Assembly (NCBI GenBank): GCA_949317995.1
Contig: OX439039.1
Coordinates: 74,844,002 to 74,908,001 of the forward strand
Direction: 5' to 3'
Source of the DNA: Acholoe squamosa
Lineage: Eukaryota > Annelida > Polychaeta > Phyllodocida > Polynoidae
DNA: 64,000 nt
Under the pieces are notes generated by a model. The model made no database searches, had not been told where the DNA came from, and saw only the letters and a list, made by a program, of their open reading frames with translations. Within the stretch, counting starts at the first letter, position 1; every line of letters starts with the position of its first letter. Position numbers and translations under genes: made by a program. Positions 13,531 to 61,900 of this stretch are shown here, piece by piece.

Positions 13531-13639
13531 TGATAACAAATGCACAAAGGTTTAAATCAAACTGTGCAAGCTTTAAATTGGTTTGTGTTTTTTTTTTCTC
13601 TTTTATTCATCTATTCATAAGGGGGTGGGAGCAGATGAC

Positions 13640-17650: not shown

Positions 17651-17830
17651 CATCTACTTAGAGATATGTGGCTTCTGGCATTTATTCGAGGTACACTTGT
17701 TCCACTTTTTGTGAGCATGGCTCCAGCTTCATATTCATAGTAAACTCCACCTGGATTTCACTCAAGGGACAAATAGCTTCTGCGACAGAGAAGAGGACAT
17801 GTGGCTTCCTGGGTGGCTTCAACTGAAGAA

Positions 17831-29858: not shown

Positions 29859-30167
29859 GTACACTGTAAAAACAGTGTTTAGGTATTAAACACCAGTGTT
29901 TAGAAGTTAAACACTTGGTTAAACACTTATTTGTCCCACTTTTCTCAACACTTCTTAAGTGTTAAACACCTTCAATTTTAAACGCATTTAACTAGGAAGT
30001 GTTTAACCAAGTGTTTAAATGCTAAACACTTAAACACTTCAGTGTTTAGGTGTTTGAGAATAAGTGTTTAAAAGCTAAACACCTAAACACTTCAAGTGTC
30101 TAAATGTTTAAATGTTGGTGTTGAGAAAATTTGGTGTGTATCTTTAAACACCTTTTTTGCAGTGTAC
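29859..30167. mobile_element. GTACACTGTAAAAA MITE with GTGTTTA internal repeats
   Basis: Ends GTACACTGTAAAAACAGTGT and the inverse of GTACACTGCAAAAAAGGTGT. The interior is built from AAACACTTAAACACT-like words in both orientations, so it can fold in many registers. It sits immediately left of a TTAA multi-hairpin copy. Confidence 0.75.
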
Positions 30168-30600
30168 CTTAAGGGCCACATGATGCCTCCAGGTTCATGC
30201 ACCTTGGTCGTCATGATGCACCAATGCAGTGCTTCTGAGTCCGCTCACCAACCCTTATGAAGTGGGTTACAAGGGTGGATGAAAGTCTTCAGGGTTTTCC
30301 TAGTCACAGATCTGAGACCCTAATGACACTACGTTATAGGTTAACAAGTATGTGAGTTTGGCGCCGATCCAACTAGGTTTTCCAAGATTTCAGGGATTTT
30401 CAAGTTCCAAACAACCTAGATACATTCCAATAGAACTCCTAGTCCTATATCCATGCGGCTTCTAATTGAGCATTTCAGTGGTGTGTGTGCTCAGTGACTT
30501 CCATCCCTGGGGTTGTTGACCCTGTAAGTGTTGGCATGATACGTGAATGCAGCCAGGTGAGATACTGACCTGGGCTGTAGTCATTCACCCTGAAGTAATA
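30168..30600. mobile_element. TTAA multi-hairpin copy carrying a nested MITE
   Basis: CTTAAGGGCCACATGATGCC start, CATGATGCACCAATGCAGTG arm, then the MITE at 30277-30509, then GATACGTGAATGCAGCCAGG and its inverse GGGCTGTAGTCATTCAC. Confidence 0.6.
30277..30509. mobile_element. Second GATGAAAGTC MITE, itself interrupted
   Basis: GGGTGGATGAAAGTCTTCAG ... AGTGACTTCCATCCCTG. Compared with the 7532 copy it contains an extra ~75 bp (about 30302-30378, starting TCACAGATCTGAGACC and ending GCCGATCCAACTAG), flanked by CTAG-like sequence, so another small insertion is likely. Confidence 0.65.
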
Positions 30601-31020
30601 ATACATTGAAGCAACATGTTGCCCCTAGAGGGTTAGATCCTCCCGGTACATATAATACATACATGATGGAGGCAAGGGGCCCGACAGGGGAATTGGGTCT
30701 GGCGCTATTGGGGCGTGTCGGGGGCTGTAGGGGTGGTTGGGAGACGTGAGGGTGTCGGCCCCACGATCGACACGCTTCACTTCCGTCGGTAACGAACCGC
30801 GCTCGTTCGGCGACCGGAAACGCCCGACCACATCCGGTATGTGTCCGCGGGGGTGGGTGGGGTGGTGACCAGGGTGGTGGTGCGGGGAGGTGATGGACGG
30901 TGGTGCTGGTGGTGGACAGGTATTGGGTATGGAGATAGAAGTGGCAACCGTAGAACAATGTCAAACACACAGGGGGTGTGTATAAAAGCAAATGCAGATT
31001 TAATACTATTTTAGTGTGCA
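30600..31020. other. CpG-rich block, no exon proven
   Basis: CpG-rich at 30690-30860 with a donor-like ATCCG|GTATGT at 30836. Inspected for the missing RGM exon: a frame reads SFGDRKRP, but stops close upstream and no Cys-rich domain exclude it. The - strand is open for 136 codons without a recognised motif. Confidence 0.3.
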
Positions 31021-31446: not shown

Positions 31447-31899
31447 ATGTGTGGAGATTAGAAGTACCAGCTATTGGATCTGAGAGAACCCAGGGAGATA
31501 CTAATGGAATCCCACAGACAACTTATGTCAGTTATTCTGAAATATGACCCAATTTTAAAATTTCCTTTGGTGATGACTGGGATCGGCATTGATTCGCCTA
31601 AAATTGCAGATCATAGGATCTTATGAATATTTGCAATACCAGGATCGGGCGTGGTGGTGTATCCTAACGTTAGAGAGGAGACTATCATGGAGGAGGGGGG
31701 GGGGGTGCTGTCCTGATTCTGTCTAAAACTGACATTAATTACCACCCCTCCTCCGGCACCCCCCCCCCATCCCTCACGCCCTTCTCCTCCTGTACATAAC
31801 GATGCGCAGGTGTGCTCTAATTAGTTTACTGCAGGTGGCTAAAAGCACAGCCAGGAGGCCAGCAAGCCGACCATGACAAACATGTTTTTATTTAAAACA

Positions 31900-32140
31900 C
31901 TCTAAAGAGTGCATGGTACATCAAAATGCATCAGTGCATGGGATCAATGCAGTGCTGGCGAGTGTGCCCATTTGCACTGCATTGGTGTATCATGCCACCC
32001 CAAGGTGCATCAATGCTAGAGAGTCATCATGATGCATGTATGCAGTCCTGGTGAATAACTCGCCAGGTCTGTATTTAGGTATCATGAAGAGCAAATTGCA
32101 CCATGGATTATAAAGCACTATGTACACCTTAAAGGGTTAA
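31900..32140. mobile_element. TTAA multi-hairpin copy just upstream of the RGM exon
   Basis: CAATGCAGTGCTGGCGAG with inverse CACTGCATTGGTGTATCATG, then CATGATGCATGTATGCAGTC with inverse GTCTGTATTTAGGTATCATG, and right end CCTTAAAGGGTTAA. It lies ~370 bp before the exon, in the last RGM intron. Confidence 0.7.
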
Positions 32141-32449
32141 ATGAACGCTTTATGCCAGACTCGGGGGTGCTATATCTTAATGCTATCTGTCATTGAACAC
32201 CTTTTTAAAAAGTGACAGTTAATACATTTTCCAAATACCTTCATACTCACTGTGTCCTCCTGTGTGTAGGTGTTTTTTTTTGTTTTGTTTAGTTTTGTTT
32301 GTTTGTTGCTGTGTTTTTTTTTTTTGTTTATTTTGGTTGTTGTTGTGTTGTTTGTTTGTTGTTGGGTTTTTTGGGGGGATGGGCATACACCCTTCCTTTT
32401 CCTGAGCAACAGCAGACATAATTATCAATCCTCAGAGTTTATGTCAAAA

Positions 32450-32509
32450 TCTGTCAATGTTCATTATGAAAACAGCACTAATTTATGTTTCTTTTTTTGT
32501 CTGTTACAG
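32450..32509 (+). other. 3' splice site of the last RGM intron
   Basis: A strong pyrimidine stretch (ttctttttttgtctgttacag) precedes the exon that begins TTGACG. The junction falls before the codons for LTV, the place expected for the last vertebrate RGM intron from memory of those genes, and is phase 0. Confidence 0.85.
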
Positions 32510-33304
32510 TTGACGGTGGTAGTAAAGCGTCATGACGAGTGTGCCGCCGACCGGTTCGTCACCTATCAGGCGCAAACAGACCTACTTCCGGCCGTGTTCG
32601 ACGATGGCCGGTCGGAATTCGGACCGGAAGGAGCCGTCCGCATAACGGAAGTGGAGCCGGGTCGCCATGTGCAGATCTACCTGCGCTACATCGACACGAC
32701 GCTCATCATCCGCCAAATTGGCCGCTTCTTCACTTTTGCCGCCAAAATGCCGGCGGAAGTGATCTCTGAACGCAGGCCTTCCTCCTACCCCACCGCTGCC
32801 AGTGGCGAACTCTGTGTACGCGGATGCCCCCATGGCGAGCGTATCAACTATAAAAAGTTTTTGGCGCGAAAACATAAGCGTCTGAAATCAGGTTCAAAGA
32901 ACGTTCTGCAGGAGCAGACGACATCTGACGCCACCATGATGATGAACCGTGACTTGGCGGAAACGCTGTGTCGGAAGGCGCAAGTGGTGGATTTCTACTT
33001 TGACAGCTGTGTTTTTGACTTAATGACCACTGGAGATATGAATTTCACAGTGGCAGCGTCTCAAGCATTGCGGGACGTATTACGTCTTATGCCGCAAACG
33101 GCGCGCATGCACAAAAATCGCACGGACCTCTTGGAGATAGACGCTGAGTATACGTCGTCGGCTACCTCATTGCGCACCCAGGGGGCGCACCGAACGGAAA
33201 CCTACTCCCGGATATGCGCGCGCAGCCTGTTGTTATCCCTATGGACGTACACAATATGTTTGACATTGTCCCAATGGGCTTCAGGGACAACGACGACGGT
33301 ATAG
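32510..33304 (+). CDS. RGM: Repulsive guidance molecule (RGM/hemojuvelin family), last coding exon
   Basis: RGMs are GPI-anchored co-receptors that bind BMP ligands and neogenin at the cell surface. The exon starts after a polypyrimidine tract and TTACAG acceptor (ag at 32508-32509), phase 0, and runs 264 codons to TAG at 33302-33304. Landmarks seen: LTVVVK at the exon start (human RGMA LTVIFK), YIDTTLIIRQIGRFFTFAAK about residues 60-80, the LCVRGCPHGERINY segment (human LCLRGCPLNQQIDF), and DFYFDSCVFDLMTTGDMNFT (human [20 protein letters not shown]) with a conserved NFT glycosylation site. A second N-R-T site follows. The tail (LLLSLWTYTICLTLSQWASG, then TTTTV) is hydrophobic, as expected for a GPI signal. 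A basic RKHKR lies in the variable linker. The nearest in-frame ATG upstream lies in intronic poly-T/G sequence and is not the start. The GDPH autocleavage motif belongs to the preceding exon, which I did not find. Family certain; the paralogue cannot be assigned. Confidence 0.94.
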   Translation: MTVVVKRHDECAADRFVTYQAQTDLLPAVFDDGRSEFGPEGAVRITEVEPGRHVQIYLRYIDTTLIIRQIGRFFTFAAKMPAEVISERRPSSYPTAASGELCVRGCPHGERINYKKFLARKHKRLKSGSKNVLQEQTTSDATMMMNRDLAETLCRKAQVVDFYFDSCVFDLMTTGDMNFTVAASQALRDVLRLMPQTARMHKNRTDLLEIDAEYTSSATSLRTQGAHRTETYSRICARSLLLSLWTYTICLTLSQWASGTTTTV

Positions 33305-33454: not shown

Positions 33455-34075
33455 GCCAATCACACGCGAAATGTATTATAGAGTATAAATAATAAGATAT
33501 TGTTGTACATAAGATGATATGGCCATGAGGAGATAATAATATTATATTGTACAGAAAGGGGTCTCTCTCTCTCTGACAGGTTGTCATTTTGTGGGGATGG
33601 GGGGATTGTCACATGCTGTGGTCACATGGTCACTAGGAACGCTGACGGTTCAGGTACATGTCAAATGTATAACAAAGGAGAGGAAAATGTTGTATATATT
33701 GTATAAAAAAGGACAGACAAATTCACATTACAAAGGGAATGTCAATTATGAATGTCTGTTTCATTTCAAAGGCATTTTGTTAAAGGGAGGTTTTTGGAGG
33801 GCAGGGGGTTATTTGATGTTGGGAGAATGGGAACAATAACTGGGATTGGGTGGGAAACTCTAGACTAATGTTTGTCTTTGGGGTGAGGTATCACTTAATA
33901 CCAACAATATACAACACACATTTCTCCCTGGCGTCTCTGTCACTATTCAGCGTATCTACTTGTGAATATGAACATATCACTTTCATCTTGAAGTAAACCA
34001 GCGATGTCGAGATTAAAGACAAAAGAAACTCGCATAGATTCTCCCAAATAGTCCTGTAAAGCCCGAATGATGCAT
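33454..34075. other. Probable RGM 3' UTR and downstream DNA
   Basis: Follows the TA tract; ATTAAA at ~34012 could act as a poly(A) signal. No coding frame of substance. Confidence 0.35.
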
Positions 34076-34345
34076 TAACCCTTTACAGACCACTAAATCA
34101 TTAAGGCATCATGCTTTATTGAGAGGCATGATGCATGAATGCAGCCTTATAGAGGAATTCGCCAGGGCTACACTCATGCATTATACTGACCCTTCAGGGT
34201 CGATACACTCCCTGAGGGTCAGCATGATGCTCTAAATAATGACGTGTGCGCTAGCAGACTCACCAGCACTTCATTGGTGCATCATGACGACCAATGGGTA
34301 TGATGCACTCCTACATCAGAGCTATGTAGCATTGAAGGGGTTAAA
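34076..34345. mobile_element. TTAA multi-hairpin element
   Basis: Left TTAACCCTTTACAGACC, right GAAGGGGTTAAAGG. Arms CATGATGCATGAATGCAGCC with inverse CACTCATGCATTAT, and GCACTTCATTGGTGCATCAT. Confidence 0.75.
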
Positions 34346-36909: not shown

Positions 36910-37080
36910 TTCGCTTTTACATGTATATTCATGATACTATTATGCATCCATTAAGTACTGCATTAATGCATCATGTTAATTCTGTTTGATGCACTCTAAA
37001 AGGTCAGCAAAGTGCATTAATGCATCACCTACTGATGGTGCATTGGTGTATCATGAATACTTGATGCATCAAGGATTAAC
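36910..37080. mobile_element. Diverged AT-rich multi-hairpin copy
   Basis: GCATTAATGCATCATGTTAA, TGCATTAATGCATCACCTAC and GGTGCATTGGTGTATCATGA show the family words with C/G pairs largely replaced. Confidence 0.5.
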
Positions 37081-37230: not shown

Positions 37231-37428
37231 GACATGGACACACTCTTGATAGATTGCATCTGAACTTTGAGGGTAATTTCCATTCCTCTGTAATTTGAAA
37301 CGAGAGCATAATGATTCAATTACCGAAGAAAACGTTGGAAGCATTCTCTGTAGGAAAAAGAGGTACAGTGAAGATTTAGTAGGACAGTAGTCACTCCCAC
37401 CAATATGTTAGCACACCTGCACGCTATT

Positions 37429-37700
37429 AACCCTTTAAGGGCCATATGGTGCCTCCAGGGTCATCAACCTATGTCGTCATGATGCACCAATGCAGTGCTG
37501 GCGAGTCTGCTCGCCAGCACTGCATTAGTGCATCATGCCGACCCTTCGGGAGTGTATCGATCCCATAGGGTCAGCATGATACATGGATGCAGCCCTGGTG
37601 AGGTACACACACCAGGGCTACACTCATGCATCATCACATCCACCAGATTGTATAAAGCATGATAACATTATTAGGCCCTTAAAGAGCCTTTAAAGGTTTT
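37429..37700. mobile_element. TTAA multi-hairpin element (best-preserved long copy)
   Basis: Starts TTAACCCTTTAAGGGCC and ends GGCCCTTAAAGAGCCTTTAA. Hairpin 1 at 37478-37537 has 27-nt arms (CATGATGCACCAATGCAGTG CTGGCGA) with one mismatch and a 6-nt loop. Hairpin 2 (~37576-37634) uses a different arm, GATGCAGCCCTGGTG. The centre carries GACCCTTCGGGAGTG / CCCATAGGGTC. No coding. Confidence 0.85.
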
Positions 37701-38667
37701 AAGTTTGTAATCCTCCCCAATCACCACATGTAGATAGTTAAAGGGGGAAGAAGGGAACTGGAGGACACAGGTGCGTACTTATATGTAGGAAGGTATACAG
37801 GTGTCTATTTTGTAGCTGTGTGATGGTGGGGCGAACAAGGCAGGTAAAGGGGTGGTCATTATCAAAAAAAAATGTTGGTGTGCTTTGTGGATCTTTGTAT
37901 GAGCAAATGGAAATATTCCATCCCAAGACCTCTATGAGAGGGGTCAACATTTCTTACTCCTCTCTTATCTAATGCAGAGAGCAGTGAAGAGTAAGGTACA
38001 AATAAATTATGAAAATGTATGACTTTTCTTTTTCTCTCACCTCCTTGTAATCTAGAAGGGACAAAATCCTTGTGCACTAGAGGATCTAGACTGGCTTCAG
38101 TCCCTTGCACTTTACTTCACGACAACAGGCAGGGTAGGGAGGATGAAAGGGGGGGGGGTGCTCTCACTCCTTCATTACATCTTCATGAATTCATTATCAC
38201 ATAATCAGAGACTGAAGCCAGTCTATAGAGGATCCAAGGGGAAGGGTCATGCGTCCCCCTAGACCGCCGGAGAATTTGCCTCAGTATGACTCGTAAAAAC
38301 TAGCCGGGGCCCTGCCTGCGCCCCCGCGACCAGAACGTAATGTTCCTAGTTTTATCCCCCTGGACTACCCCCCCCCCCCGTTGTGCCCCCCATCCTTCAA
38401 CTACCACCCATGTTGATACACAATGACCACTCCCCAAAGAAAGTCACAGCAGTCAGTAGTCGATGTCAAATGATGTATGTTCCTGCTGCCCTAGCTGCTG
38501 GTATAAGGCTGAGATCCAATAGATGACCTCCAAATTCAAATAGAAAAGGTCTAACGTTCGGGGCTTGTTTAATTGTGCAGAGACCGTGTCGGGTCGGTTG
38601 GAGGAGGGGGGGGGGAGGAGCCTTGCACCTCTTTGTGTATGTACCCCCAATCCCCTTGCCCCCTTCT

Positions 38668-38915
38668 TAACCCTTTAAAGGCAACATAGTAACTAGATAC
38701 AGTATTCCCATTGGACATCATGTTTTATGAATGTAGCCCTGGCATGTTACTCAGCAGGGCTGCTGTCATGTATCATGCTGACCTTACAGGATTAACATAC
38801 TCCTGGAGAGTTAGCATGATGCTCCAATGTAGTGACGGTGAGCAGAAAAGTCAGCACTGCATTGGTGCATCATGAGGACCGGGGGACCATGTGGCCCCTA
38901 AAATGTTAACCCCAT
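38668..38915. mobile_element. TTAA multi-hairpin element
   Basis: TTAACCCTTTAAAGGCAAC at the left, GGCCCCTAAAATGTTAACCC at the right. Arms AATGTAGCCCTGGCATG and GTCAGCACTGCATTGGTGCA. Confidence 0.75.
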
Positions 38916-40508
38916 CCATCTATCTTATACCCCCCATCACTTCTCCCTCCCCTCCAGCTCTGTGTACATTCTCTCACTTCACACCACCACGACCAATACC
39001 ATCACCACTACCACCACCAACACACATTCTCTACTCAAGAATTCCTCTTCAGTTTTCTCTTTGGATATCATCAATGAAATGTGGGGTATAAAAGATATAT
39101 TCTTCAGAGCAATCGATGGTAATACTTTGAAAATGAAAAACAACATATATTTCCCCAAATACTCATTCAAATTGAGTAAATAACACATTTTAAGAATCAT
39201 TTTGGTAAATTTGATTGACTGCATGCATTGTAGATTTAAGTAAAGTGTTATAGCAGGCAGTGACAAAGGTCTAGTGTAGGTAGAACTTAGTCCACAGGTA
39301 GCAGCCCCCCCCCCCTTACTGTGTCCTCTCCTACCTTTACTGTACCTGCCCTATCTGTGGATACCACTTTAGGCTAATCGTAGCCCCAGGCTCAACTTTC
39401 ACCCCAGTTTTTGTCCTCCACAAGGCGAGCGAGACCAAGTGAATCACAGCTGCTTGGTGAGCATAAAGACACTGAAACTGAAGACAAATAAGTCCTTGGT
39501 GGTCCTGAACATGCAGGCCTTGGGCCCATGGGGCTTGTCCTTTCATCCCCTATCATATCCGATCTAACGTTTACGATCAGTACAACTTGCTATAGCGAGT
39601 TTTATTTTTGACCTGGAATGAGTCTTTATTATGGGACCTATTTTTTCACATTTTTGTCCCTGGAAAAAGAAGCTATGGAATTTGGATTGAGACGAGAGTT
39701 GGAGTAGTATAAAAAGACGGAAGGGGGACTAGCAGGTTGGCCTCTGGGAATTCTGGCTATGTTGACTCTATACCATTAGAGGGATTACAGATATGTGTGA
39801 AAGAAGTGTTCTCAGCTTTCAAAAACCCTCTTCAAATGCCATTCTTTATACTAGCCTCTCCTTGGTCAAATAAAACCTTCACATCGAAAAAAATAAGAGT
39901 TTCTCTGGGAATAAATGATCAAACCATCTAACCATGCATCCAATGAACCTGTGTTTCCCAAATATATATAAAAAAAAATTATTAGGTTCCAAAGATCTGT
40001 AGGTTGCAGTAGATCTACTTGAAACATAAGAAACAATATTTTTCATTGCTTCTTAAATACCTGAATTTCAACTTGTTTAACTGCGACTAAAATCGTGGTC
40101 ATCAATCATTTCGACTAACAAAATACTACTTTGAGTAAACATGATACCTCGCATGAATGATACCAATATGTCACATGAAACACACCTTTTTAGCCTATTA
40201 TTCTGGCAACAGTGAAATTATGCCATAATGGGGAGGCTTTGCGTTGGTCTGCCCCAACTACTCCTGCCAAATTAGGGTTGTTGCGCGATCTCATAAACAC
40301 TGCTATGCTCGCAGAGATGAATGAATGAATGTATACAAAAAAAAAATCCCTTTCACTTGACTATCAATATCTGTTCCAAGGCTAGATCTATAACCAACTC
40401 TGATTTCATTGCCCCACTTATCATGGCGATGGAGTAGCATGGAACCACGTGCGTGATTCACAAGTTGAGCTCTCTAGGAGGCACATTTAGTGGAGCTCAG
40501 TTTAGAAG

Positions 40509-40893
40509 TTAACCCTTTACGGGCCGCCAATGCAGGAGTGCATAATGCCCATTGGTCAGCATAATGCACTGTAGTCTGCATGCTCAGCAGCGCTTCATTA
40601 GGGGTGATGCAACGGTTCCCACACGTCATGGAAAGTCATGAAATGTCATGGTAGTTCTGGACATTTCATCTTGAGTCATGGAAAGTCATAGAAAATGAGA
40701 AAACTGAATATCTATTGCAAACTCCATTTGAGTGCATGGACCATTTTCCCCCACCTCGATTGCAGGAATTTTGTCAGACGTGCAACCCCAATAATGTCCA
40801 AAATTAGTTAAAATGTCATGGAAAATTTCAATTTTTGTCATGGAATTGAGTCTTTGTGGGAACCCTGGTTAACGCATCAGCGGCCCGTTAAGG
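40509..40893. mobile_element. TTAA multi-hairpin element, split by an hAT-like MITE
   Basis: Left TTAACCCTTTACGGGCCGCC, right CGCATCAGCGGCCCGTTAAG. The right half of the hairpin region is replaced or separated by the GGTTCCCACA element. Confidence 0.7.
40611..40867. mobile_element. hAT-like MITE (GGTTCCCACA ends) nested in a TTAA element
   Basis: GGTTCCCACACGTCATGGAA at the left, TGTGGGAACCCTG at the right; the interior has repeated GTCATGGAAAGTC words. The host copy's left part ends near 40610 and its right end (CGCATCAGCGGCCCGTTAAG) resumes at ~40872. Confidence 0.75.
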
Positions 40894-41695
40894 TACTAGT
40901 ATGTGAGGCACATTTAGTGGAGTTCAGCCCGGGAGGCATACATCCAGGAATAATGACTTAATTGTGCCCCTGAATCCGGAACCATTCTGACAATGAAGAA
41001 TGTGGTGGCAGTTTGCTGTCAGCCCCAAACATGTATTTATAATCATAACCTATCACCCACGCCATGTATATATACATGTGGTTTGGACATAGAGGTGTAA
41101 GCTTAAATCTTGTTTTCTTGATTTATAGATGACATTTAGAAGTATGTATGATAGTGTGTATTCATGCACCATCTAATATTTAGATCAAAATCACATTTAA
41201 TAGAAATGGGCAATTCGGTACATACATGTATGACCTATACGTGTACCAACATGCAGTTGCGGTGCAAACATCTAGAAATCAATCTACATTTTCCATTCAT
41301 CACACTTTCAAGTTCAAGTCATGACATGCTGAATTTCTATGACAATGACATGTCATAGAAACGAAAATAAAACAAGAAGCAGAGCTTAGATTCAGTAGAT
41401 TTAACCTCATTTAACCTCATTTGTTGAACCTCATTCACAATTTAAAACCTCCATCTTTTTCCCTCTCTGACTCGACACAATTACACATCATTTGACTCAC
41501 TCAGGTTTTAAATGGAGACAGTACACTCTACGAAGTATTTGTTGAATCAACCTCATAAAGCTGAACAGTGAACCACCGTTATCATATTGCAGAAAGCACT
41601 GTAGTCTCTACAATGAAGCCCCAAATGGCAGTACAGTTAGGCACTGTGGCACGAGGAATTTCCGTGTAAATAATGATGAATCTCTGCAAATTTAA

Positions 41696-41865
41696 CAGTG
41701 GCGGATATAGAGGGGCGCGGGGGTGTGCACCCCCTTTTATCTTACCAGTACTAGTACAGAGTTTAATTTGATGTTTTGGACCCCAAGATTTGCTCAAAAA
41801 TAGGGGGTGCGCCCCCTCCTTTAGGGCCGCGCCCCCTCCTTTTCCAAATCCTGGATCCACCACTG
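41696..41865. mobile_element. hAT-like MITE (CAGTGGCGGAT ends)
   Basis: CAGTGGCGGATATAGAGG ... CTGGATCCACCACTG: 11-bp inverted ends with a G/C-rich interior (GCGCCCCCTCCTTT). The form is typical of the CAGTGGCGGATCC class of hAT-derived repeats in animals. A clean 8-bp duplication is not visible. Confidence 0.7.
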
Positions 41866-42125
41866 ATTTAGGATCAAAAAGTTCACCGTTACTTTGACGA
41901 CATTTTTACAGTGTGACATGACCCTGGGCTTGCATGATGACTACAATTAGATGGACAGAGAAGATATATCATGTGCTGTACAAAGAAGTGACTGAGTGCA
42001 AATGGTGTCATGTAAGTGATCTAGTGTCCTGTGGCATGAGCTGCTCATTGTGACTCGTTGTATTTTCATTCCTATAGTTAACACTTTAAAGAACACACGG
42101 TGCATAAATATGGCTCTAGACCTCT

Positions 42126-42300
42126 AAAATCGACATGGCGACATGGACCTTTTTTGGCTTAGTGAATGGGACATGAACCTTTCTTTGAAATCGACATGGT
42201 GACATGAACTTTTCTTAAAATCGACATGGGGACATGGACTTTTCTTAACATCGACAAGGAGACATGGCCATGTCTTAAAATCGATATGGGACATGGGGAC
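42126..42300. repeat. 30-bp tandem repeat
   Basis: Four to five units of AAATCGACATGGNGACATGG plus ACTTTTCTTA, period 30. The - strand frame is open and reads ILRKVHVPMS repeats because the unit is a multiple of three. Confidence 0.9.
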
Positions 42301-42998
42301 CCCCCCATCAATGGCCCCATTATTGAAAAATGCCCCTTGATTGTCATAATCTACAAATGCCACCCTGCAGTTGGTAACTCGCTAACTAGGGGTACATACA
42401 TATTCTGACCCTGCAGGATTACAACACTCCTCCCTCACTTCCTGGACCCTTAAAATCCTCGGATCGCTAATTAGCCAAGACTTAGGATTTCCAACTACCT
42501 CTAGCTGTCCCATTATATCTCCCACCATGGGGGCAGCTCAAAGAGGAAATAGTCAGTGAGTAAGTGCACTTCAGAAAACATTAACCATTTAAGGGCTGCA
42601 TAGGAATTCCTGTATAATGCTTAGCTAATGCACTCTGCCCTCAGCTACCATAATTCCCTGGTATAACTGTAAAAGCTGCACATACACATACACGGTTATG
42701 CATGGATATAGGCTCACGTTCTGTTCAATTGACGAGTTTTTTTTTTCCTGAACATGACTTGTGCAATATTTGGTGTCACTCTGCCCCATCTACATTTTTG
42801 ATACACTCTATATCTCTTCTTTTTTCATTCTCCTTTATTTTAAGTTTGTGTGCTACTATAGGATAGAACGGTTGGTATCAAACAAAAGGAAAGGGTACAA
42901 AGTCCTCAGCTGTCTCGACACCCACACATACTTATCGGTAAATAAGTGTTAGAGAGAGTGTTGGCAGCTCCTGTGCAGTGTTACCCCGGCTAGTCTGA

Positions 42999-43279
42999 GG
43001 GAGTGATCAACAAGGGGGGGGGGGCTGGTGGGTTTGCGCTCAGACGCGCGAAATTTTTTTTGACCCCCCCCCCACCCCCCGTAAGGGATGAAAATCGCTC
43101 CGCGAACATGCCCTTTTAACCTATAGTAATGCGCGGGGTTTTCCACTGAAAACAGGTGAAATTATTTTTGACCCCCCCATCACAGGGGTTGAAAAAATTC
43201 TGACCCCCCCCAAACCTACCAGCCCCCCTCTGTTGTTAAAAAATGATCACTCCCTTAGGGAGTGATCATTTTTTAGAAC
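42999..43279. mobile_element. Second copy of the GGGAGTGATC MITE plus an abutting inverted end
   Basis: Left GGGAGTGATCAACAAGGGG, right TTAAAAAATGATCACTCCC ending at 43254, then TTA, then directly GGGAGTGATCATTTTTTAG (43258-43276). A further terminus therefore abuts the first in opposite orientation, forming a perfect small palindrome. Confidence 0.8.
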
Positions 43280-43315
43280 ATGGGTAGGGGGGTCTGCTGA
43301 TTGGTACTTTGATGA

Positions 43316-43515
43316 AAGGCAGAGAAAGAGACAGAGAGAGACAGACATACAGAGATGGAGAGAGACAGACAGACAGACAGAGACAGACAGACAGACAGAG
43401 AAAGACAGACAGACAGAGAAAGACAGACAGAGACAGACAGACAGGCAGAGGGGGAGAGAGATACAGTCAGACAGATAGAGACAGAGAGACATAGACATAC
43501 ATACAGAGACAGAGA
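43316..43515. repeat. (ACAG)n/(AG)n compound microsatellite
   Basis: Purine-rich tetranucleotide array of ACAG/AGAG words, ~200 bp, interrupted. The frames across it (RQTDRQ; SVCLSL) are artefacts. Confidence 0.95.
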
Positions 43516-43589
43516 ATTAAGGAGATGCTTTAAGAGAGAAGTAGCAATGGCCTTATTCAGCATCATGAGCATGGCAAGAGTCTTTCTCT

Positions 43590-43912
43590 AACCCTTCAAG
43601 GGTCCCATTAGACTTAAAAGCATTTTCTCCCTTGTATCATGGTATGTTGAAATTTTATCATGAAATAACCAGGTTGATATTTTACCAAGAAATAAAATGT
43701 TCTGCTGTTGAGCCTAGAATCACCAGAGCTGCATTTATGCATCATGCCTAGGAGCATGCCAGCCAATAAAGTTGATAAATCCTGAAGGGTCAGTGCGATG
43801 CACCAAACTGCTACGACTAATATACCAGATCCTCGTTGCTTGATTACATATGCACCAATCTTAGAGAGGATTAACTAATGCGGGCATGATGCACTCCTGC
43901 ATCACCGGCCTT
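43590..43912. mobile_element. TTAA multi-hairpin element, diverged
   Basis: Degenerate left part; GAGCTGCATTTATGCATCAT at 43727-43746 and a right end GATGCACTCCTGCATCACCG then GCCTTTAA identical in layout to its right neighbour. Confidence 0.6.
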
Positions 43913-44155
43913 TAACCATTTAAGGGTCATGATTCACCAATGAAGTGCTGATGAGACTGCTCTCAAGCACTTCATTGACCCTATGGGATCAATGAAGTGC
44001 TGAGCCTATAGGGTTGATACATATATATTCCCAGAGAGTCGGCATTATCCTCCAATGAAGTGCTGGCAAGCAGTCTTGTCAGCACTTCATTGGTGCATCA
44101 TGACGACCAATGGGCATGATGCACTCTTGCATCACCAGCCTTTAAAGGGTTAAAG
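43911..44155. mobile_element. TTAA multi-hairpin element
   Basis: TAACCATTTAAGGGTCATGA at the left, CCAGCCTTTAAAGGGTTAAA at the right. Hairpins with CAATGAAGTGCTGATGAG and CCAATGAAGTGCTGGCAAG arms. It abuts another copy at 43590-43912. Confidence 0.8.
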
Positions 44156-44734
44156 TGTTAGTGAGTGAGTGAGTAATAGATGTTTGACGCCATTTCAACA
44201 GCTGAGGTCATATTCATGGCAAGAACTACATTATACAATTTCACAGAGGAATGTATCAGTGCCAGCGCATATATGTGCACCACACACATCCGAGGGAATA
44301 GGAAAGAGAAGAAATAGACCCTTTTAAGTGGGCTAGGGAACCCCGTTAAAGTGTTAAGCCCTAAGACTAAGAGGATAGCCATGGTAGTGTTCAGAAGAAC
44401 AATGAGCAGTGTCTGTCTGTCTCTGCGGGACCTCATGCAGTACAGTGCCTCTCCCAGAAAAGATATATTGTTTGTTTGCGATTCAGGGCCATTGCTGAGA
44501 AAAAAATCTGTGAGCGAGGTATGGATAGTGTGGAGCTGGGTTTTAACCCTTTCTTCGCTACAAAACACCTCAATATTAAAGTTCCTACGTATACGTTTTC
44601 ATTAGCACCAATTGTATAAAATGTGTTTTAAAAGCGATATCTGACAGTCTGTATTGTTACCACATTGTTGCCCACGTGAAAAAAAACTGTAGGCTGTATA
44701 TTCTCTATGGTATTGTCAATTCCATTGTTTACTG

Positions 44735-44940
44735 TCACCCCTATGGGGGTGCTTATTGCAAGCATGGCGAGTAACTTGCCTCTGCTGCATGGCTGCATCA
44801 TGGCAACCATTTTGGTCTGTATGTATCAAACCGATAGGGTTGGCATAATGCATGAATCCAGAAATGGCGAGTAACTCACTATGATGACCAAATGCCATAG
44901 GGCAGTAAAAACACTACGTAGCTCTGCAGGGGCTAAGCTA
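44735..44940. mobile_element. Diverged multi-hairpin copy
   Basis: GCATGGCGAGTAACTTGCCTC hairpin area followed by GCATAATGCATGAATCCAG and GCGAGTAACTCACTATGATG; termini not clear. Confidence 0.5.
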
Positions 44941-45175
44941 CCACGCATGACCAATGCTTGATCCGAGATGGCGACCTTGTATTTGTCTAAGGAAAGGATT
45001 TCTACTGGCTTACCGACCAGACTCGAGTCATAACTTTGTATTTATTTTGTTGTTTGTGAATAGGATTTTGGATGGGCTTTGCATGGACCAGTAAAATGGC
45101 CCATTTGGGTAGTGTCACACATAACATCACTGACTTTACTTGGGGAACTTTTTTAAGGTCCACCTCTCTCCCTCT

Positions 45176-45179
<4 letters not shown>

Positions 45180-45248
<69 letters not shown>
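45180..45248. repeat. (TC)n microsatellite
   Basis: Pure CT dinucleotide run of ~34 units preceded by a looser pyrimidine tract from ~45161. Confidence 0.98.
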
Positions 45249-45249
<1 letters not shown>

Positions 45250-47309
45250 TGGTCATCTCCCTCTCTGTAGGCTACAGCACTACCCAGCCAGCACGTCCCA
45301 CGTCTGGGCTAGCCCAGAGGCTCAGAGGAATCCCATCTGGGGCTTTTGTGGACATGCTGGCTGGGTAGAGAATTTTTCAATGAATCTAAATCGTTTACAC
45401 TTACAAGCACATAATCATCACATGTAGAAGTGATATATCAGGAACTTTTAATATGACTACATAACTTCTCTATATGACTCTCCTGTCTCTCTCCTCTTAT
45501 TTGTTAATTCTCTTCTTGTTCTTTATCCAGCCCCTCCAGCCCCAAGTTTCTTTCAGCCCCTGTGCATCATATGTTTTAGATGGGAAGACCCCAGTTAGAA
45601 GGCACAACTGCCAACAACAGCACGCCGCAGTGGCTTATGGGATGCTTCCAGCTCACTGAACATGCGCACGCAGCCGACCAGCGTCTCTCCGCCAATACAT
45701 GTTAGACAAACATTAACCCAACTTTTAGTCACATGACCTCAAATGTATTGTTTATTTTTCTCACTTGGAATAAAAAGTAAGGCATATCGGGTAGCGGAGG
45801 GGTGTTTGCTTTTCTCACTTGGCTTCGAGAGGCCGGCAAGCCCAGGTCAAGTCCATGGCATAAGCAAAGGCCCGGAGCTTCTGGAGTTTTTGTTTGAGAG
45901 GCATCCAAGGGTATAGACCTAATACTGTCTTGAGGTTGAAAGTGAGAGTATTCAGAAAATTTATAAGAACAAAGGCAGCATTATGTATCAAAGTAGTCAG
46001 GTCCCTAGGTTTCCAGTGAAGCCATAATCTTGAATATCGGAAGCCACTTCATGAATACACCTCAACATACATTCTCCTTTGACATATTGTTTTAAGAAAT
46101 CACATTGCATATTGAAATCAAATTATATTTTGCAAAGTGGGTGAAGAATCAGAAAACCTATTTCCGTGTGAGTCAAACCTATGGGGGTTTGTCCCACATT
46201 ATTAGGAAGTTATGAAGCCACAGTAGGTACATATACCTTATCTAAACACAAATCACAATATTATAATATACCTTTCAGTGAAGGCCTATAATTACTATTA
46301 ATGAGAAAATTGAAATGGAGGTCTATACTAAGGGGGTGCTACCAATGTACATGTTTGCCATATATTCAATGTGTGAAAGGTCATTTTAGTGGAGGAATAA
46401 TTTACAGGGGAAACATTTGCCGGTCAACAGACGCTGACTGGATCACGTGTGCACGTCGAGGGTGGCCCCCTGTCGGCCGTCTTTGACGTATCGTCACCTG
46501 ATACCTGGACCAGCCACCAGGCGTCACTAGCAGTATGTAGGAAGGTCAATCTCTCCCCTCTCCATGGCCTGTTCTGAACAGGGCCGGAACACCTGGGCAT
46601 GACAGCGCATGAACACCTTCTCTCACAAGTTGTGGAACAATCGCACTAACAAGTTTTGTTGCGCCCCCAGGCGCGGATCCGGGGGGGGGGCGCGGAAAAC
46701 GCCCCCAACTCATCACCCAATTTCTTGGAGTTTGTAAGGTTTTTAGGGGATGGTTGATCATCTCTGTATGCCTTTATACTTCTTCTTCACATCCTCCCTA
46801 TTTTTATACCTTTTATACCAAAAAGTATCTGCAAAGCTGATAATCCTTTTAAGGGGCTTTAGGGGCTGATCCAGATGGGTTGGTCAGGTGGGGGCACAGC
46901 CAGGAAATTTGGTTGATGGGTGGGGTGGGGGGCCTAGACTGGGACCCAGGCTGCATTTCATATAGTTAAAAGTTTTATTATGAGGCCCATTTTCCTGGGG
47001 TATATATGGATTCCATGTATAGATCCCATGTATAGATCAAGAACTATCACAAAAGAAAAAAAGACCAAAACAAGGCAGATATGATGTTATGCCTGCATTG
47101 GGTGTGGTTTCTTTAGTGTAAACCAGTGCTGATGTCATCTTGTTCTAAATAATATGTGCACTGTGAATTATCTGCCAAGGAGCTATTGTTACCAGGCTGC
47201 TTTATCATTGGTGCTGCCCATTTTTATTACTGGATAGGACTATAAATTTCCTGTAGCTTCCAGCGCTATAGATTGCTTATTTTATGTTAGGATGAAGGGA
47301 AGGGAGAAG
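45249..47309. other. No supported gene
   Basis: Unique DNA. Near 46655-46690 lies a GCGCGGATCCGGGG scrap of a hAT-like repeat. Confidence 0.45.
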
Positions 47310-47600
47310 GTTCACCCCCAGTCCCACCATTCCATCTCACCCTGCCCTCACCCCCAGCCCTACCATTCCTTCACCCTCAGTCTCACCCTGCTTTCACCCC
47401 CAGTCTCACCCTGCCCTCATCCCCAGTCCCACCAATCCTCCACACTCAGTCTCACCCTGCCTTCACCCCCAGTCCCACCAATCCATCTACCTCAGTCTCA
47501 CCCTGCCTTCACTCACAGTCTCACCACACAACCACCTTCAGTCTCATCCTCCCCTCTCCTCAAACTGCACCATTATTTCAACCACAATCTCACCCCCACC
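47310..47600. repeat. Pyrimidine-rich minisatellite
   Basis: Recurring CAGTCTCACCCTGCCCTCAC / CAGTCCCACCAATCC modules of ~20-25 bp, C/T-rich on the + strand. The 116-codon frame over it (SLTLPSPPVPP...) is a repeat product, not a gene. Confidence 0.85.
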
Positions 47601-47759
47601 CAAATCCATCCACCCTTAAACCATTCCTACCCTGGAGTTTAAGTCTGAATATCTGATATTGCATATTAAAGGAAACTAGAGATCTACCTCTCACCTGTAA
47701 TAAATGATTTAAGGCAGCCTCTAAATTATCTCTAGAAATGCACCAGAAGGCACCAATTG

Positions 47760-47945
47760 CCCTCTAGAATTTAAAATTTTCCTGGGGGGAGGCATGCCCC
47801 AGACCCCCCTATCATGTCGCTTCGCTTCGCTTGCGAATTCACTGCGCTTCGCCTGTAAAACACCTTCCAGCCCATTCACCTATCTCCAATGGCCAAAATA
47901 TGCGCCCCCCCCCTTTTCTCAAAATCCTCGATCCGACCCTGGCCT
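47760..47945. mobile_element. Degenerate C/G-rich transposon-like repeat
   Basis: Contains GGGGGGAGGCATGCCCCAGA, then CTTCGCTTCGCTTGCG and ends TCCTCGATCCGACCCTGG. Similar phrases (GGGGGGACACCCCCCAGACA; GGCGCGGATCCGGG) occur at 14220 and 46670. Ends not resolved. Confidence 0.5.
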
Positions 47946-48554
47946 CCACTCCAAAAAGTAGTCCACACTTAGTGTGCATGACGTAGTTCCTGCGCATGAC
48001 GTACCGTGCCTGCGTCCCATGTACAGTGGGAAACAGAGTGCGTCAAATCGAGAATCCTATAAGTGGCTACAGGGACCCACCCTATAGTCTCTGTTAAATA
48101 ATTGATCAAGCTTTTGACTCAGATTGCTCTAAATAGGTTTACCCCTCTGTCAAAAGAGAGATGCCACTGACTGATGCTTGATCCGACCAGCGACTAGATC
48201 TAGGCCTACTTTCCTTCTCTTCATCAGAATCATATTCAGCCATCCTTCACTTCCTCGACCCTTTAATTCATAAGATCTCTCATTTAATACCTGAGACAAA
48301 AAATCTACAACTGCCCCTGAGCCTACCCCCGCTACGTGTTCTGTTATTTGTCTTAAATCCTCAGAAAAGTTGCTTCCTCAGACATTTTTTGTCACGAATC
48401 AGATCCAGTCTGGGGCAAGCCAAAGAGAATAGATAAAGGGGAACGGCACAGAGACCAAGGAGGCAGATCTAATGGGATGCAGCTTTGTTGGGTATCTGTA
48501 CAGATGTGAGGTGTTTGACACTGAAAACCCACCGCTATTGGAAACTAGTCATAT

Positions 48555-48635
48555 ATGACGATTTTAGGGTCGTCAGAGGGTTGTCATGCATTTCTGACGA
48601 TCCAAACTCGTCATTCTGACCACCCTGATAGGTCT
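48555..48635. repeat. Second GTCGTCA/TGACGA cluster
   Basis: ATGACGATTTTAGGGTCGTC then TGACGATCCAAACTCGTCAT; same word family as 26625-26825. Confidence 0.65.
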
Positions 48636-48969
48636 ATTAGTGTAGAGTTGATCCATAAGAGGGCCCCACTATCCAAAGGCCAGATTCTTATGATCCGCCC
48701 TAAGATATTTATTGACTAATATCTGCAATGAATTTGGTGCATTGTCAGTTGAGAATAATTGGGGGATGTATCTTTTGATATAACAATGTACCGTAAAGAA
48801 AAAAAATTGCTCGAAGATTATTTACAGTAGAACACTGACATTTCCATTACGCTGCCTCTTTTGTGTTTTGGGATTTTTATAACTCCCTATTGATTGAGTA
48901 CAGTTGTTAAACTACCTATATGCATGTACTGGGGAGAATGCTATTGCTAACCTCACCTAATAATGCACA

Positions 48970-48973
<4 letters not shown>

Positions 48974-49025
<52 letters not shown>
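48974..49025. repeat. (GA)n microsatellite
   Basis: Pure GA run of ~26 units after cacagggt. Confidence 0.98.
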
Positions 49026-49029
<4 letters not shown>

Positions 49030-49476
49030 CCCTAGCTTCTGAATGCCAGTTTTCCCTACACTCAGGATTGTTCCCTACCCTCACTGTGGGATTACTGGGG
49101 TGGGTCTAGGTGTCAAAGAAATATAAAATAAACAAGTTAAAACCTGTCAAATTTAATTTGTTAGTGCTGACTCAGGGTCTTTAGATAACCCAGATTACTC
49201 ATGTAGTTGACCTTGAGATATAGGCCCTGAAATGGTCACCATGAAATCTGATAGGTTTTGCCTTGCTCATGCCATCCTGCTCACTTTGAAAACTATATTT
49301 TCTATGCAATAGGCTCCTCAGAAAATGTCCCCCTCCCCCTCTCCCCGACCGACCTCCATTCCCTTCTCTTTCCTGCTTCTTACTTCTTCTAGCTCATGGA
49401 CGATCCAAGGTATCCCAATCCTAAGTAAATAAACGTCCGCCACTGCGGCTGCCTACAGCGGCACCCCCTCCCAGCT

Positions 49477-49720
49477 CTTTAAAGGCCGCTGATGCAGGAT
49501 CGCATGATGCCCATTGGTCATCATGATGCACCAATGAAGTTCTGGTGAGACTGATCGCCAGCACTACATTGGAGCATCACGCCGACCCTATGGGGTGGAT
49601 ACATATGCTCCCGGAGGGTCAGCATGATGCTCCAATGAAGTGCTGGCCTCGCCAGGACTTCATTGGTGCATCATAAGGACCAATGGGCATGATACATTGA
49701 TGCATCAGCGGCCTTTAAAG
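49477..49720. mobile_element. TTAA multi-hairpin element (best terminal repeats)
   Basis: TTAA at 49479-49482 and 49715-49718 bracket inverted ends AGGCCGCTGATGCA (14/14), then ATGCCCATTGGTC again inverted (about 31/37 overall). The interior has two hairpins with AATGAAGTGCTGG-type arms. The TTAA flank is the target used by piggyBac-like transposons; assignment is inferred. Confidence 0.85.
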
Positions 49721-50613
49721 GGCCTCTAGACTGTGTTCACATATGCAGAGACACGAAACCTTGCCATCGGAGCTTTATATCGTCTCCAACGAACCTCAGC
49801 GCACAAAGTCTACTTGTTCTTGAAAAGCCTTCAGCTTCTGGCCTGACCTATACTCGTGCAGGCTGGAGCTGGTTTGGTTATAAAGGAACATATGCATTGA
49901 AATTTGATGTGATGAAATAAACACTGCTGTGATTTATGGTGGAAGAGTTTTTGTTATTTCTTTTATCTCTTTCTTTTTTCATTGTTTTTGTTTTTTTAAT
50001 TTATTTAATGTATTTATTTTATTTTATTTTATTTTATTTTTTTTTTGGGGTGGGGGGGGGGTGTTAACTCAAAAGTCCTTCGAGTTGCCTTACCTCATTT
50101 TCCCAATATTGCGTTCATCACCGGAAAACAGGAAGCATTTAGGCCCATATTCTTTATCATTTGGCATGGTAAACAATGTTTTTTTTTAAACCAGGATGAT
50201 TTCAATATTTTCCCATGGCTACCTTCACCGCCATTGTTGTAGTCCTGTGATAAATCATAGAAAGATGTATACATGCAGCAATTTCTCTCTAACACTGATG
50301 GCATTTTCTACCTTCCAGAGACCAAGCATGGATTGAGGTTGGTTTAAATCCTGGGCTCAAATGCAAATAAACTGCTTACAAAAGTAGATAAAAAAGGGGA
50401 CTGTCAGTATAATCTGTTAGATCATCCACAAAGGGCTAGTGTTAGATGAAGACCGTATAGGCATAGACAGCAGGTGCCAGAAACTATAACTGGGATATAA
50501 AATACTCAATGATATGACTAGAACATGTATACATGTAGTATATATTTCTACATGTACATACATGTACTTCTATGATTGGCTTCCATCTCTGTAGTAGGTA
50601 ACTTACACTTTAA

Positions 50614-52284: not shown

Positions 52285-52690
52285 TAACCCTTTGAGGCTT
52301 ACGTGGAGCTGTACCAGAGAAACTTCTCGTTATAATTCCTGTATACATTCAACTCAAGTAAACAACAATTCTCCAGGGCTGAATTCATGCATCCTAACAC
52401 CAATGCCACACGATACAGGGTCGATGCACTCCTTCCTGAAGGGCCATTGTGTAAGACAATGCCCCAGTGCAGTGCTGGTGAGTAGACTCAGCAGTACTTC
52501 ATTGGTGCATCATCCCGGTGCATCATGACTACCCTTCAGTTGTGTATTGGCCCTGTATATTCTGTATAACTAAGGTCAGGATGATGCATGAATGCAACAC
52601 TGGTTGGTTACTGAGCAGAGCTGCATTTTAATATCAATCATGACAAATGGATGAATCAATAGACAGTATATGCAGTCTTAAAAGGGTGAG
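52285..52690. mobile_element. TTAA-family multi-hairpin copy, rearranged
   Basis: Contains AACCCTTTGAGG (52287), CAGGGCTGAATTCATGCATC, CAGTGCTGGTGAGTAGACTC with inverse GCAGTACTTCATTGGTGC, and GATGCATGAATGCAACACTG. Longer than average, so partly duplicated. Confidence 0.65.
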
Positions 52691-58907: not shown

Positions 58908-61900
58908 CTGAAAAAAAAGAGAACAATTGCATCCTTAAACCTTTAATAAGTCAGAGTATAATCAGGAGAGCGCAAGCACTGGGTATGTTGATACAAATTT
59001 CTTTTCCCTCAAAAGATTTCTTTGGCACCTATGCAACTTTCCAAAAAACAGGGTGATAATCTGAAACAGGGTGGGCTGCTCCCTTAAACGTTATATAGTA
59101 GAAAGATTATAAACATTGAATAACAGGACAACATTTTTAAAACTGCATCTATGTAAATCTAAAGTTCAAGCAGTGAGTTATATCTAGAGGTCTGCAGAAA
59201 TTGCTGACCAAACATAATATCATACAATTTCTTGTGATGCTCTTGAAAAACGATACCTACTGATACAGTTTATTACAAATGGCACCTACCCTTCAGTCTT
59301 CCAAGAAAGCGAAGAGCGGTTATCTCTGAGAATGTGACACCTCCGAGGAAGAAGACGAGGACAACACGAGTGGACGGGTCAATGGCACCTGCTCCTTTAC
59401 CTTCAATACAGAACAATCAAACTTAAAACAAATTATAAACTTACAGCATAAACTATAATGATTAAAACATACATGCAAACTCTGGATGAGAAAAAAAACT
59501 GAGCGAATAAAAGTGATGAGGTTTTTCCTTAGAAGTATTAAAGATTGAAATCTCAAAAATTGGGGGGTGTTGAATTCTGAGAAGCTAAATGGTACATGCT
59601 GGCGATTTCTTTGGATGGTACCGTAATCTCCCGCGTAGAAGGCGCAGCTCGCGTAGAAGGCGCAACCCAACTCAGAGAAGGCCTTTTCATGTAGAAGGCG
59701 CACCTACCTCTTCTGGATCAATTTCTGGAAAAACCCGCGTAGAAGGCGCCCCCCCCCCCCGAACTCACAGGGGGGCTGTTTTGCGTAGAAGGTGCCCCCC
59801 TTCCCACCCACCCCCCATTGTACACCGACCGGGCTGCCGCGCTGCTGGCTCTAAGAGTTCAAGCTGTCATTGGTACACGGTCGGCTTGGTGCCCGCCGAG
59901 CGCCTATACACCGACCAGGCTGCCGCGGTGAGGGCTCTATGAGTCGATGCTGTCATCAGCACATGGTCGGCTTGGTGCCCGCCGAGCGCCTGTACACCGA
60001 CCGGGCTGCCTCGCTGCTGGCTCTAAGAGTTCAAGCTGTCATCGGTACACGGTCGGCTTGGTGCCCGCTGAGCGCCTATACACCGACTGGGCTGCCGCGG
60101 TGAGGGCTGTATGAGTCGATGCTGTCATCGGCATATGGTCGGCTTGGTGCCCGCCGAGCGCCTGTACACCGACCGGGCTGCCGCGCTGCTGGCTCTAAGA
60201 GTTCAAGCTGTCATCGGTACACGGTCGGCTTGGTGCCCGCTGAGCGCCTATACACCGACTGGGCTGCCGCGGTGAGGGCTGTATGAGTCGATGCTGTCAT
60301 CGGCATATGGTTGGCTTGGTGCCCACCGAGCGCCTGTACACCGACCGGGCTGCCGCGGTTAGGGCTCTATGAGATCAAGCTGTCATCGGCGCACGGTCGG
60401 CTTTATTGCCCCAAAGTACCCCAATTGAAAGTCAGAAAAACCCGCGTATAAGGCACACCCCAAACTCAAGGCAATGCCCCTCCCGCGTATAAGACCCAGG
60501 CGTAGAAGACGCGCCTTCTACGCGGGAGAATACGGTAATACCTGGTATCAGAAATTTTCTAAGGCCACCCCCTATATAAATGGTAAAATGATATTTTTTT
60601 AGATCTGGAAGAATCACAAGGATGACTCTGACAGATCATAGAAAAACTGAGAAAACTGAAAAAAACTGAGGAGTTTGCATTTATGTTAAAAACAAGAGAT
60701 AATGAAATGCTACTATTACTATATCATCTGGTACCATATCTTATTTTTGTAGATAAGGATATCCTAGGACAATGAATAATTTTCTTTTTTTAATCTTTTT
60801 CTTTATATCTAATTCTTATTTTTCTTACCGGACACTGTACAGAGAATTTCACCATACATATTTGACATGCATTTACCGGTAGTATTTTCATACATAATAA
60901 GGGTCATAAATTGGGCTTTGTATGATCCCTCTATGAACGAGTGTTCATCACATTATGTTCATATTCATTTGGTCTAAAACATTTATCATGGGGATGTTCT
61001 TGGGATACTTATACTTTCTTGTCATACTTATACTTTCTTTTGCTTACTTGTCGGGTTTGTTTTCAATGTTATTCTATATTTATTCTAACCACTATTAGAG
61101 GTAGCATCATCTTCATTTCCATGCACTTTTATGCAATATATTTGTCTTTTGTTTTGGACTGTAGTGTTATTTTGGATATTACCCTTAGCTCCTAATAAAC
61201 CTTTGTTATGTAGAATTTGGCGTTTCTTTTTTTGTAATTGTATCCTGTATTGTTTAACCTTAACATCACTTTTAAACTGTTATTGAGTAACAATCTACTT
61301 GTTTAAAATCATCTATACGAGTCTGGAAAACATAGCCAGGAATGCCCATAACCATGAAAATAACGTGTAACAAAAAGAACAAAAGAAATAAACATAATTC
61401 CCCTGTAAAGATCCAGTTGAACTAAAACCTGATTCTTGTTAATTTCTTGTAAATTTAGATACACTGACAGAACTTTTCCATAATGTCGATTTGATGAGAT
61501 AATGAAAGTGAAAAAAAATAAACAAACAAATGATATTCTATACTTGTTATTTTCTTCACCAGTATTGAACCTTTGAACTGGCCTTATTGCATACTAATTT
61601 TGGTCCACTAGGTAGGAGTTAATGTATAATACTAATTGTTAATGGGGCTATCATTAGTTCTTATCTGGTTAGCACTAGATTTTAGGTTTACAACTAGTTA
61701 ACAAGACAAAAGTGTTAATCTTACCAAAGTCAGCCTTTTTCAGTTCAGGTCCTTATAACAAAAGCACTCTAATATCAAATACGTACAGCATTTATTTCTA
61801 ATCCTTAAGTAACTCAGGGTGGAGAAAGGCGCCACTTTGACACAGAAATGATTATGTATAATGTGAAAATGCAGTTGTAAGAGTGTGTGAAGTGAATCGT

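Follow-up and report, generated by a model that had tools for sequence, protein, structure and literature searches.

In the genome of the polychaete Acholoe squamosa, a window of 64,000 nucleotides (the whole stretch of DNA analysed; assembly GCA_949317995.1, contig OX439039.1, C5:74844002-74908001) is rich in copies of a short TTAA-flanked repeat whose interior is built of hairpins. The window lies ~12 Mb from the end of the 87.1-Mb contig C5, in an assembly of 1,481,437,319 bases and 63 contigs. A profile search, with a model built from 80 copies and one hand-made consensus, gave 24 family matches in the window, which together cover 4,341 bases (6.8%). As some of them are read as halves of interrupted copies, this agrees with the original prediction of about twenty copies in 64 kb, and the four copies named there (at 37429, 49477, 43911 and 34076) are all present at these positions, with arms matching above chance. 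The element is ~250 bp long and has many copies, and, judged by its sequence, nearly the whole of this non-coding element is nested self-complementary DNA; its ends are piggyBac-like, and the two hairpins between them keep a constant order. Only two open reading frames (ORFs) of at least 150 amino acids were found in the window, neither of which overlaps any listed copy.

The architecture is illustrated by the type copy, which is of the A/B kind (37427-37702, + strand, model columns 1-252). Here, TTAA at 37427-37430 is followed by the end CCCTTTAAGGGCC from 37431, by the core of the hairpin A module at 37477-37537 (TCATGATGCA-CCAATGCAGTGCTGGCGAG-loop-CTCGCCAGCACTGCATTAG-TGCATCATG, with the arms AATGCAGTGCTGGCGAG at 37489-37505 and 37510-37526), by a centre stem-loop GACCCT...AGGGTC at 37540-37572, whose asymmetric loop gives the orientation, and by hairpin B of the AGCCCTGG/CCAGGGCT kind at 37584-37627, all on the + strand; the right border is degenerate. 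The general plan of the element consists of TTAA, a CCCTTTAAGGGCCGC tip, a palindrome TGATGCA-NNNN-TGCATCA at bp 16-33, a spacer, a 71-bp module A, a linker of ~25 bp, a 71-bp module B (a diverged duplicate of A), and the left end inverted. Hairpin-arm matches of at least 11 bp numbered 66 in the window (nested registers and some unrelated hairpins being counted), whereas five first-order shuffles had 0, 1, 0, 5 and 2. Folding z-scores against 200 shuffles were -10.8 for the copy at 37429-37700 and -17.3 for that at 49477-49720, the only two copies folded singly.

A consensus computed from 40 near-full rows of 103 aligned is predicted to fold, as a single strand (DNA parameters, 25 C), into a four-armed structure with 228 of 255 nucleotides paired (-164 kcal/mol). 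The predicted arms are an outer stem (columns 1-59 with 197-255), hairpin A (60-100), the centre (102-154) and hairpin B (156-196). This cloverleaf fold results from two near-palindromic 71-bp modules placed in tandem between the terminal inverted repeats (TIRs): the modules, at consensus columns 45-115 and 141-211, are identical to their own reverse complements at 66/71 and 68/71 positions and to each other at 54/71. The interior had been described as two distinct hairpins plus a central inverted GACCCT/AGGGTC. The two hairpins are indeed there, but they are two copies of one module, and when the TIRs are included almost all of the element self-pairs; the central motif, also present, forms the tip of another, third stem. 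Since the two modules have similar ends, the junction can shift between the outer and centre arms and the hairpin arms, so the earlier two-hairpin picture and the cloverleaf may represent two positions of one junction. The copy at 49477-49720, the only one folded of those with A-type modules in both slots (A/A), is predicted to form one long hairpin. A more ambitious and quite unlikely proposal is that of a mobile four-way junction, in which a strand would interconvert by branch migration between two extended hairpins, the cloverleaf and (for A/A copies) a single long hairpin, the fold being used by the transposase or the replication fork, so that modules would evolve matched and swap slots.

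The copies compiled numbered 125, of which 24 were in the window, 80 in loci L010-L038, 13 at piggyBac loci and eight in L001. Hairpin order was evaluated in the 63 rows in which the two slots and the centre could all be read. Each hairpin was assigned a type from both of its arms at five diagnostic stem positions, and the orientation of the centre was scored separately from its asymmetric loop; 39 A-B rows were taken from scoring, and rows other than A-B were inspected individually. As predicted, the order was fixed: all 40 clear rows (two types and a clear centre) had A-centre-B, none being discordant, including 37 A-B rows with forward centre and three B-A rows with reversed centre, which represent the same element on the other strand. 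The other 23 rows comprised two A-B rows with an ambiguous centre, nine in which both slots were A-type (the L001 array contributing three of these and the L055 array one) and 12 with an unclear slot. Different arm sequences in the two hairpins were confirmed for the type copy, but not for the copies at 43911 and 49477, which have A-type (AATGAAGTGCTGG kind) hairpins in both slots.

The element ends sharply at TTAA. In a border profile of 63 left and 55 right ends (array matches being one of the left, from L041, and four of the right, from L055), TTAA was conserved at 0.65-0.89 and the adjacent CCC/GGG at 0.71-0.92, and beyond TTAA conservation was at most 0.40 at all 13 positions examined on both sides. 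Terminal CCCT (0.71-0.92 on the left, its complement 0.76-0.91 on the right) fits the TIR start CC[C/T]T reported for piggyBac/TTAA miniature inverted-repeat transposable elements (MITEs) (PMC2872659). The word AGGCCGCTGATGCA, previously taken for the ends, turned out to be subterminal; the real ends are CCCTTTAAGGGCC.... Among 30 near-full copies, TTAA was exact at both borders in 11 and had at least three of four letters at both in 24, while a CTAA/CTAA direct repeat replaced it in one (L026:597-857). TTAA flanks had been claimed for all of the cited copies, which is true of those at 34076 and 43911 (exact on both sides) and of the left side of 37429, but the right side of the latter is a degenerate GG-TT-TTAA, and the copy at 49477-49720 is flanked by CAGCTC-TTTAAAGG on the left and CCTTTAAAGGG-CCTC on the right. 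This last copy has TTAA only at an inner place, as would be the case for a Kolobok/T2-type MITE with AGG-beginning ends and its border at the inner TTTAAA (TTAA-AGGCCGC...GCGGCCT-TTAA), and T2-MITEs do combine TTAA targets with a terminal AGGRR motif (PMC6004289). However, at these same ends conservation is 0.65-0.92 for CCC/GGG and for the outer TTAA and drops only past the latter, and the element end at the outer TTAA is CCC and not AGGRR; the Kolobok border is thus largely refuted by the border profile, and this assignment appears very unlikely.

The family is probably a non-autonomous MITE of ~250 bp belonging to the piggyBac/TTAA group, trans-mobilised by a piggyBac-superfamily transposase, with arms matched mainly via template switching. 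The superfamily assignment fits at the level of sequence, and the transposase would have cut and pasted the MITE in trans. In piggyBac, the palindromic repeat at bp 17-33 is bound by the cysteine-rich domain (CRD) of the transposase as a dimer (PMC7351741); the consensus ends of the MITE have TGATGCATGAGTGCATCA (left) and TAATGCATTAATGCATCA (right, one mismatch) at bp 16-33, and the CRD may read these TGATGCA/TGCATCA palindromes. The internal module would itself be a palindrome of the TGATGCA/TGCATCA type with a hairpin filling its spacer, and the cloverleaf could be an automatic product of the duplication of this palindromic module, for which selection would not be required.

A search with PF13843 gave 90 matches, corresponding to 38 transposase places (clustered at 20 kb), of which 20 were viewed, 12 with ~1.5 kb of flank and eight also as larger stretches (L059-L066). 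An autonomous piggyBac element sharing the ends of the MITE had been anticipated. Both ends were found for three piggyBac elements of this genome (L039/L059, L040/L060 and L043) within these 20 of 38 places, and TTAACCC is common to them and the MITE, but their TIRs are otherwise unlike those of the MITE. Two of them, L059 1672-4742 and L060 1175-4445, are bounded by TTAACCC on either side and contain open transposase frames (486 and 443 amino acids, respectively). Strong MITE-like matches near transposases were either copies and fragments (L057, L061, L064 and L066) or arrays (L041 and L042/L055). Arrays of 38-bp units like TTAACCCTTTATGGATGGCATGATGCATTGATGCACAG were observed at L041 1-242 and L055 2732-3122, each beside a piggyBac transposase fragment. 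They were considered as ends of the autonomous partner, and this candidate was dropped; as the right end of L041 is the same as that of L043, its array is probably a mere neighbour.

When the consensus stems of A and B are compared, 6 of 19 pairs differ, and in all six both arms have changed, the probability of which would be ~5e-8 if arms mutated independently. Of 69 rows, 30 have A-T at the slot A pair 66/94 and 24 have C-G, the other 15 having neither. Over 92 rows, 243 compensated double cells were found at the true register versus 55-106 at ten slid registers (1-5 columns), although much of this excess is inherited subfamily difference. A rare-letter test without array rows (85/92 rows kept) gave 16 compensated doubles versus 6.8 expected (ratio 2.4) and 10 uncompensated versus 11.1 expected. 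In addition, stems are less diverged (0.12-0.21) than loops (0.30-0.39). Matched changes in both arms are generated by template switching in DNA replication (PMC8794818), and they are also expected from selection on the fold. The hairpins might therefore have been selected, either as folded single-stranded or cruciform DNA in transposition or as transcribed hairpin RNA, a view in line with the low stem divergence, the A/B differences on both arms and the compensated cells. Template switching gives the same pattern without selection, however; besides, a self-complementary consensus alone tends to outscore slid registers, with subfamily differences counted many times, the arms in the 55-bp array of L076 no longer match by eye, and no Rfam family reached the gathering threshold in the window. 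Selection of the hairpins is accordingly regarded as rather unlikely, and the arms of the MITE would have been kept matched mainly by replication template switching, one arm being copied onto the other.

Several observations weigh against the piggyBac-mobilised, template-switched MITE. A second palindrome, at bp 28-55 of the MITE ends, scores as well as the one at the expected place, and in the genome's own piggyBac elements (L043, L059 and L060) the expected-place palindrome is present in just two of six ends (bp 14-35, L059 left; bp 15-34, L043 right), that of the L060 right end lying at bp 7-19 and the remaining three ends having none there. No autonomous element with MITE-like ends was found among the viewed 20 of 38 transposase places. 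The copy at 49477-49720 is without flanking TTAA, and L020:2625-2848 has a B-type second slot and a short centre that scores reversed (5.0 vs 1.5), its first slot being unclear. In a covariation scan with average product correction (APC), five structural pairs were in the top 200 (~0.7 expected) and eight in the top 500, the covariation being strongly mixed with subfamily structure. The copy-level compensation signal is weak, since slid registers in the rare-letter test gave 4-9 compensated doubles versus 3.2-4.8 expected, with ratios up to 2.1 as against 2.4.

Finally, with regard to the proposed TTAA target duplication, not one of 16 sites examined yielded a single-TTAA empty site: 13 matched their own locus alone, two had filled paralogues (the L032 site on C2 and the L026 site on C15, with paralogues L078 and L079), and one lay beside an unrelated repeat. 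The left flank of L023 lies within a repeat whose matches end before the insertion point. The lack of empty sites, together with the CTAA/CTAA copy and the existence of tandem arrays, might suggest that the family is a satellite or foldback repeat of palindromic type, multiplied by recombination, in which TTAA belongs to the repeating unit and is not a target duplication. Such arrays, with periods of 24, 36, 38 and 55 bp, consist of arms, hairpins or end-like units: L001 has one hairpin A arm 40 times at 24 bp, L075 has 28 units of 36 bp made up of an arm and a spacer, L076 has the hairpin at a 55-bp period, and L055 has 10 end-like units of 38 bp. The copies nevertheless lie in unrelated flanks, as the 13 sites matching only themselves indicate, and a sharp TTAA border is typical of a transposon, which makes a satellite origin extremely unlikely. 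It was also observed that L032 1445-1705 and L078 are paralogous copies of a single insertion, L078 having lost most of one hairpin B arm, as expected for unstable palindromes, and that a truncated copy in L016 (~1470-1720) has a 14-bp direct repeat (ACACCCACCTGACA) on both sides.

At the level of the genome, the 13-mer arm word AATGCAGTGCTGG occurs exactly 6,861 times, versus six for the reversed control, and the end word TTAACCCTTTAAGGGCCGCTGATGCA 939 times, versus zero. As six of the 6,861 arm-word sites are in the window, crude scaling would put copies and fragments together at some tens of thousands, a figure inflated by arrays. The best of 40 scored copies (the best 40 of 2,446 candidates) was 93% identical to the typed consensus, and the median divergence of the 40 near-full rows from the computed consensus was 16%; the family therefore looks old. 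Based on the lengths of C1-C18, 38 of 39 best copies were no more than 20 Mb from the end of a contig (18.9 expected, the query copy excluded), as were 38 of 40 in a second set (19.4 expected), and neither count was attained in 20,000 random placements. After merging, 70 of 73 best copies were distal, the exceptions being C17:22.7, C12:31.1 and C11:28.7 Mb. A control repeat was distal in 18 of 38 cases (18.2 expected; its own pieces and one small-contig match excluded). The piggyBac transposase places were distal in 16 of 38 (19.3 expected), so the location patterns of transposases and MITE copies differ. On C1, 81 of 86 exact end-word sites were at most 16 Mb from an end, and 5-kb samples contained no copies in any of four taken at 40-60 Mb and four or five copies in two of four taken at 4 Mb. 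Best-scoring copies may not necessarily be representative of older ones, and fragments occur chromosome-internally too (e.g., L064, C4 at 61.8 Mb).

The other copies in the window vary in completeness. Near-full copies are located at 34075-34344 (-; exact TTAA on both sides, and, in reverse orientation, B, centre reversed, A), 49475-49722 (-; A-type in both slots, folding as one long hairpin, with no TTAA outside CCC/GGG), 25264-25502 (-; a perfect 23-bp B arm, arm at 25313-25335) and 31897-32139 (+). Further copies are at 43912-44153 (-; A-type in both slots, exact TTAA on both sides, abutting the fragment at 43696-43915), 38668-38891 (-; model columns 35-255), 2009-2249 (+; strand from centre and hairpin types) and 10491-10660 (+; TTAACCC farther left, at 10460). 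Two matches each are read as one copy at 7453-7850 (+; interrupted within hairpin A by another short element) and 30167-30635 (+; interruption at 30256-30504). Partial copies were detected at 4361-4583 (-), 13389-13544 (+; strand from centre and hairpin types), 44757-44932 (+) and, with no strand assigned, 2349-2555 and 43696-43915, in addition to two adjoining partial matches at 52366-52687 (+), a left-end fragment with TTAACCCTTTACGGGCCGC at 40510-40601 (+) and fragments of no assigned strand at 14342-14450, 36954-37076 and 42318-42430.

The other short elements, at 7540-7690 and 30256-30504, are inserted into two copies, within hairpin A or close to it. The former has ends CAGTGATGAAAGTC and flanks TCACTA/TCACTA, and hAT-like would be a tentative label. 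MITE copies are also found on either side of an RGM_C exon (repulsive guidance molecule gene; Pfam, E = 1.3e-49) at 32270-33304 (+). A 22/66-bp minisatellite (TGGCTTCTGCTGTTCAGACACA) occupies 17005-17677, most of it covered by a 239-amino-acid ORF, and a GC-rich 86/172-bp tandem array at 59819-60403 resembles, by eye, a 151-bp array in L042/L055 on C6.

With thousands of module copies and two diverged versions per element, the family offers a natural experiment on the origin, copying and continued matching of DNA hairpins, in which selection can be weighed against template switching. Should the CRD bind the end palindromes, this would be a MITE shown to multiply transposase-binding sites internally. 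Its distal concentration, against the even control repeat, could inform on recombination or insertion bias.

A literature search, covering titles, abstract openings, PMC13155455 and few subscription papers, found no MITE with this two-module plan. The nearest published relative found, compared on general features only, is CMITE of Acropora corals (PMC2872659), likewise a TTAA-flanked piggyBac-type MITE with CCCTTTAAG... ends (CMITE family II, CCCTTTAAGCCCTA), tandem arrays and an interior better conserved than the TIRs. CMITE families have a common internal sequence of ~75 bases; however, CMITE is ~100 bp long, compared with ~250 bp here, and its main text does not contain the words hairpin, palindrom- or secondary structure, nor was a two-module palindromic interior encountered there. 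The Xenopus T2-MITE/Xmix of the Kolobok group (PMC6004289) is also an abundant TTAA MITE, one of which has an internal segment that became the repeat family Xstir, but it belongs to another superfamily and has AGGRR ends, unlike the CCC found here. Hairpins attributed to template switching (PMC8794818) similarly show matched multi-base changes in both arms, although in RNA genes and not in a MITE. Trichoplusia ni piggyBac (PMC7351741) resembles the MITE in its TTAA target and in having a palindrome at nearly the same place (bp 17-33 there, bp 16-33 here), whereas its ends are asymmetric and the MITE, which has no coding sequence, has the palindrome at equal distance in both ends.

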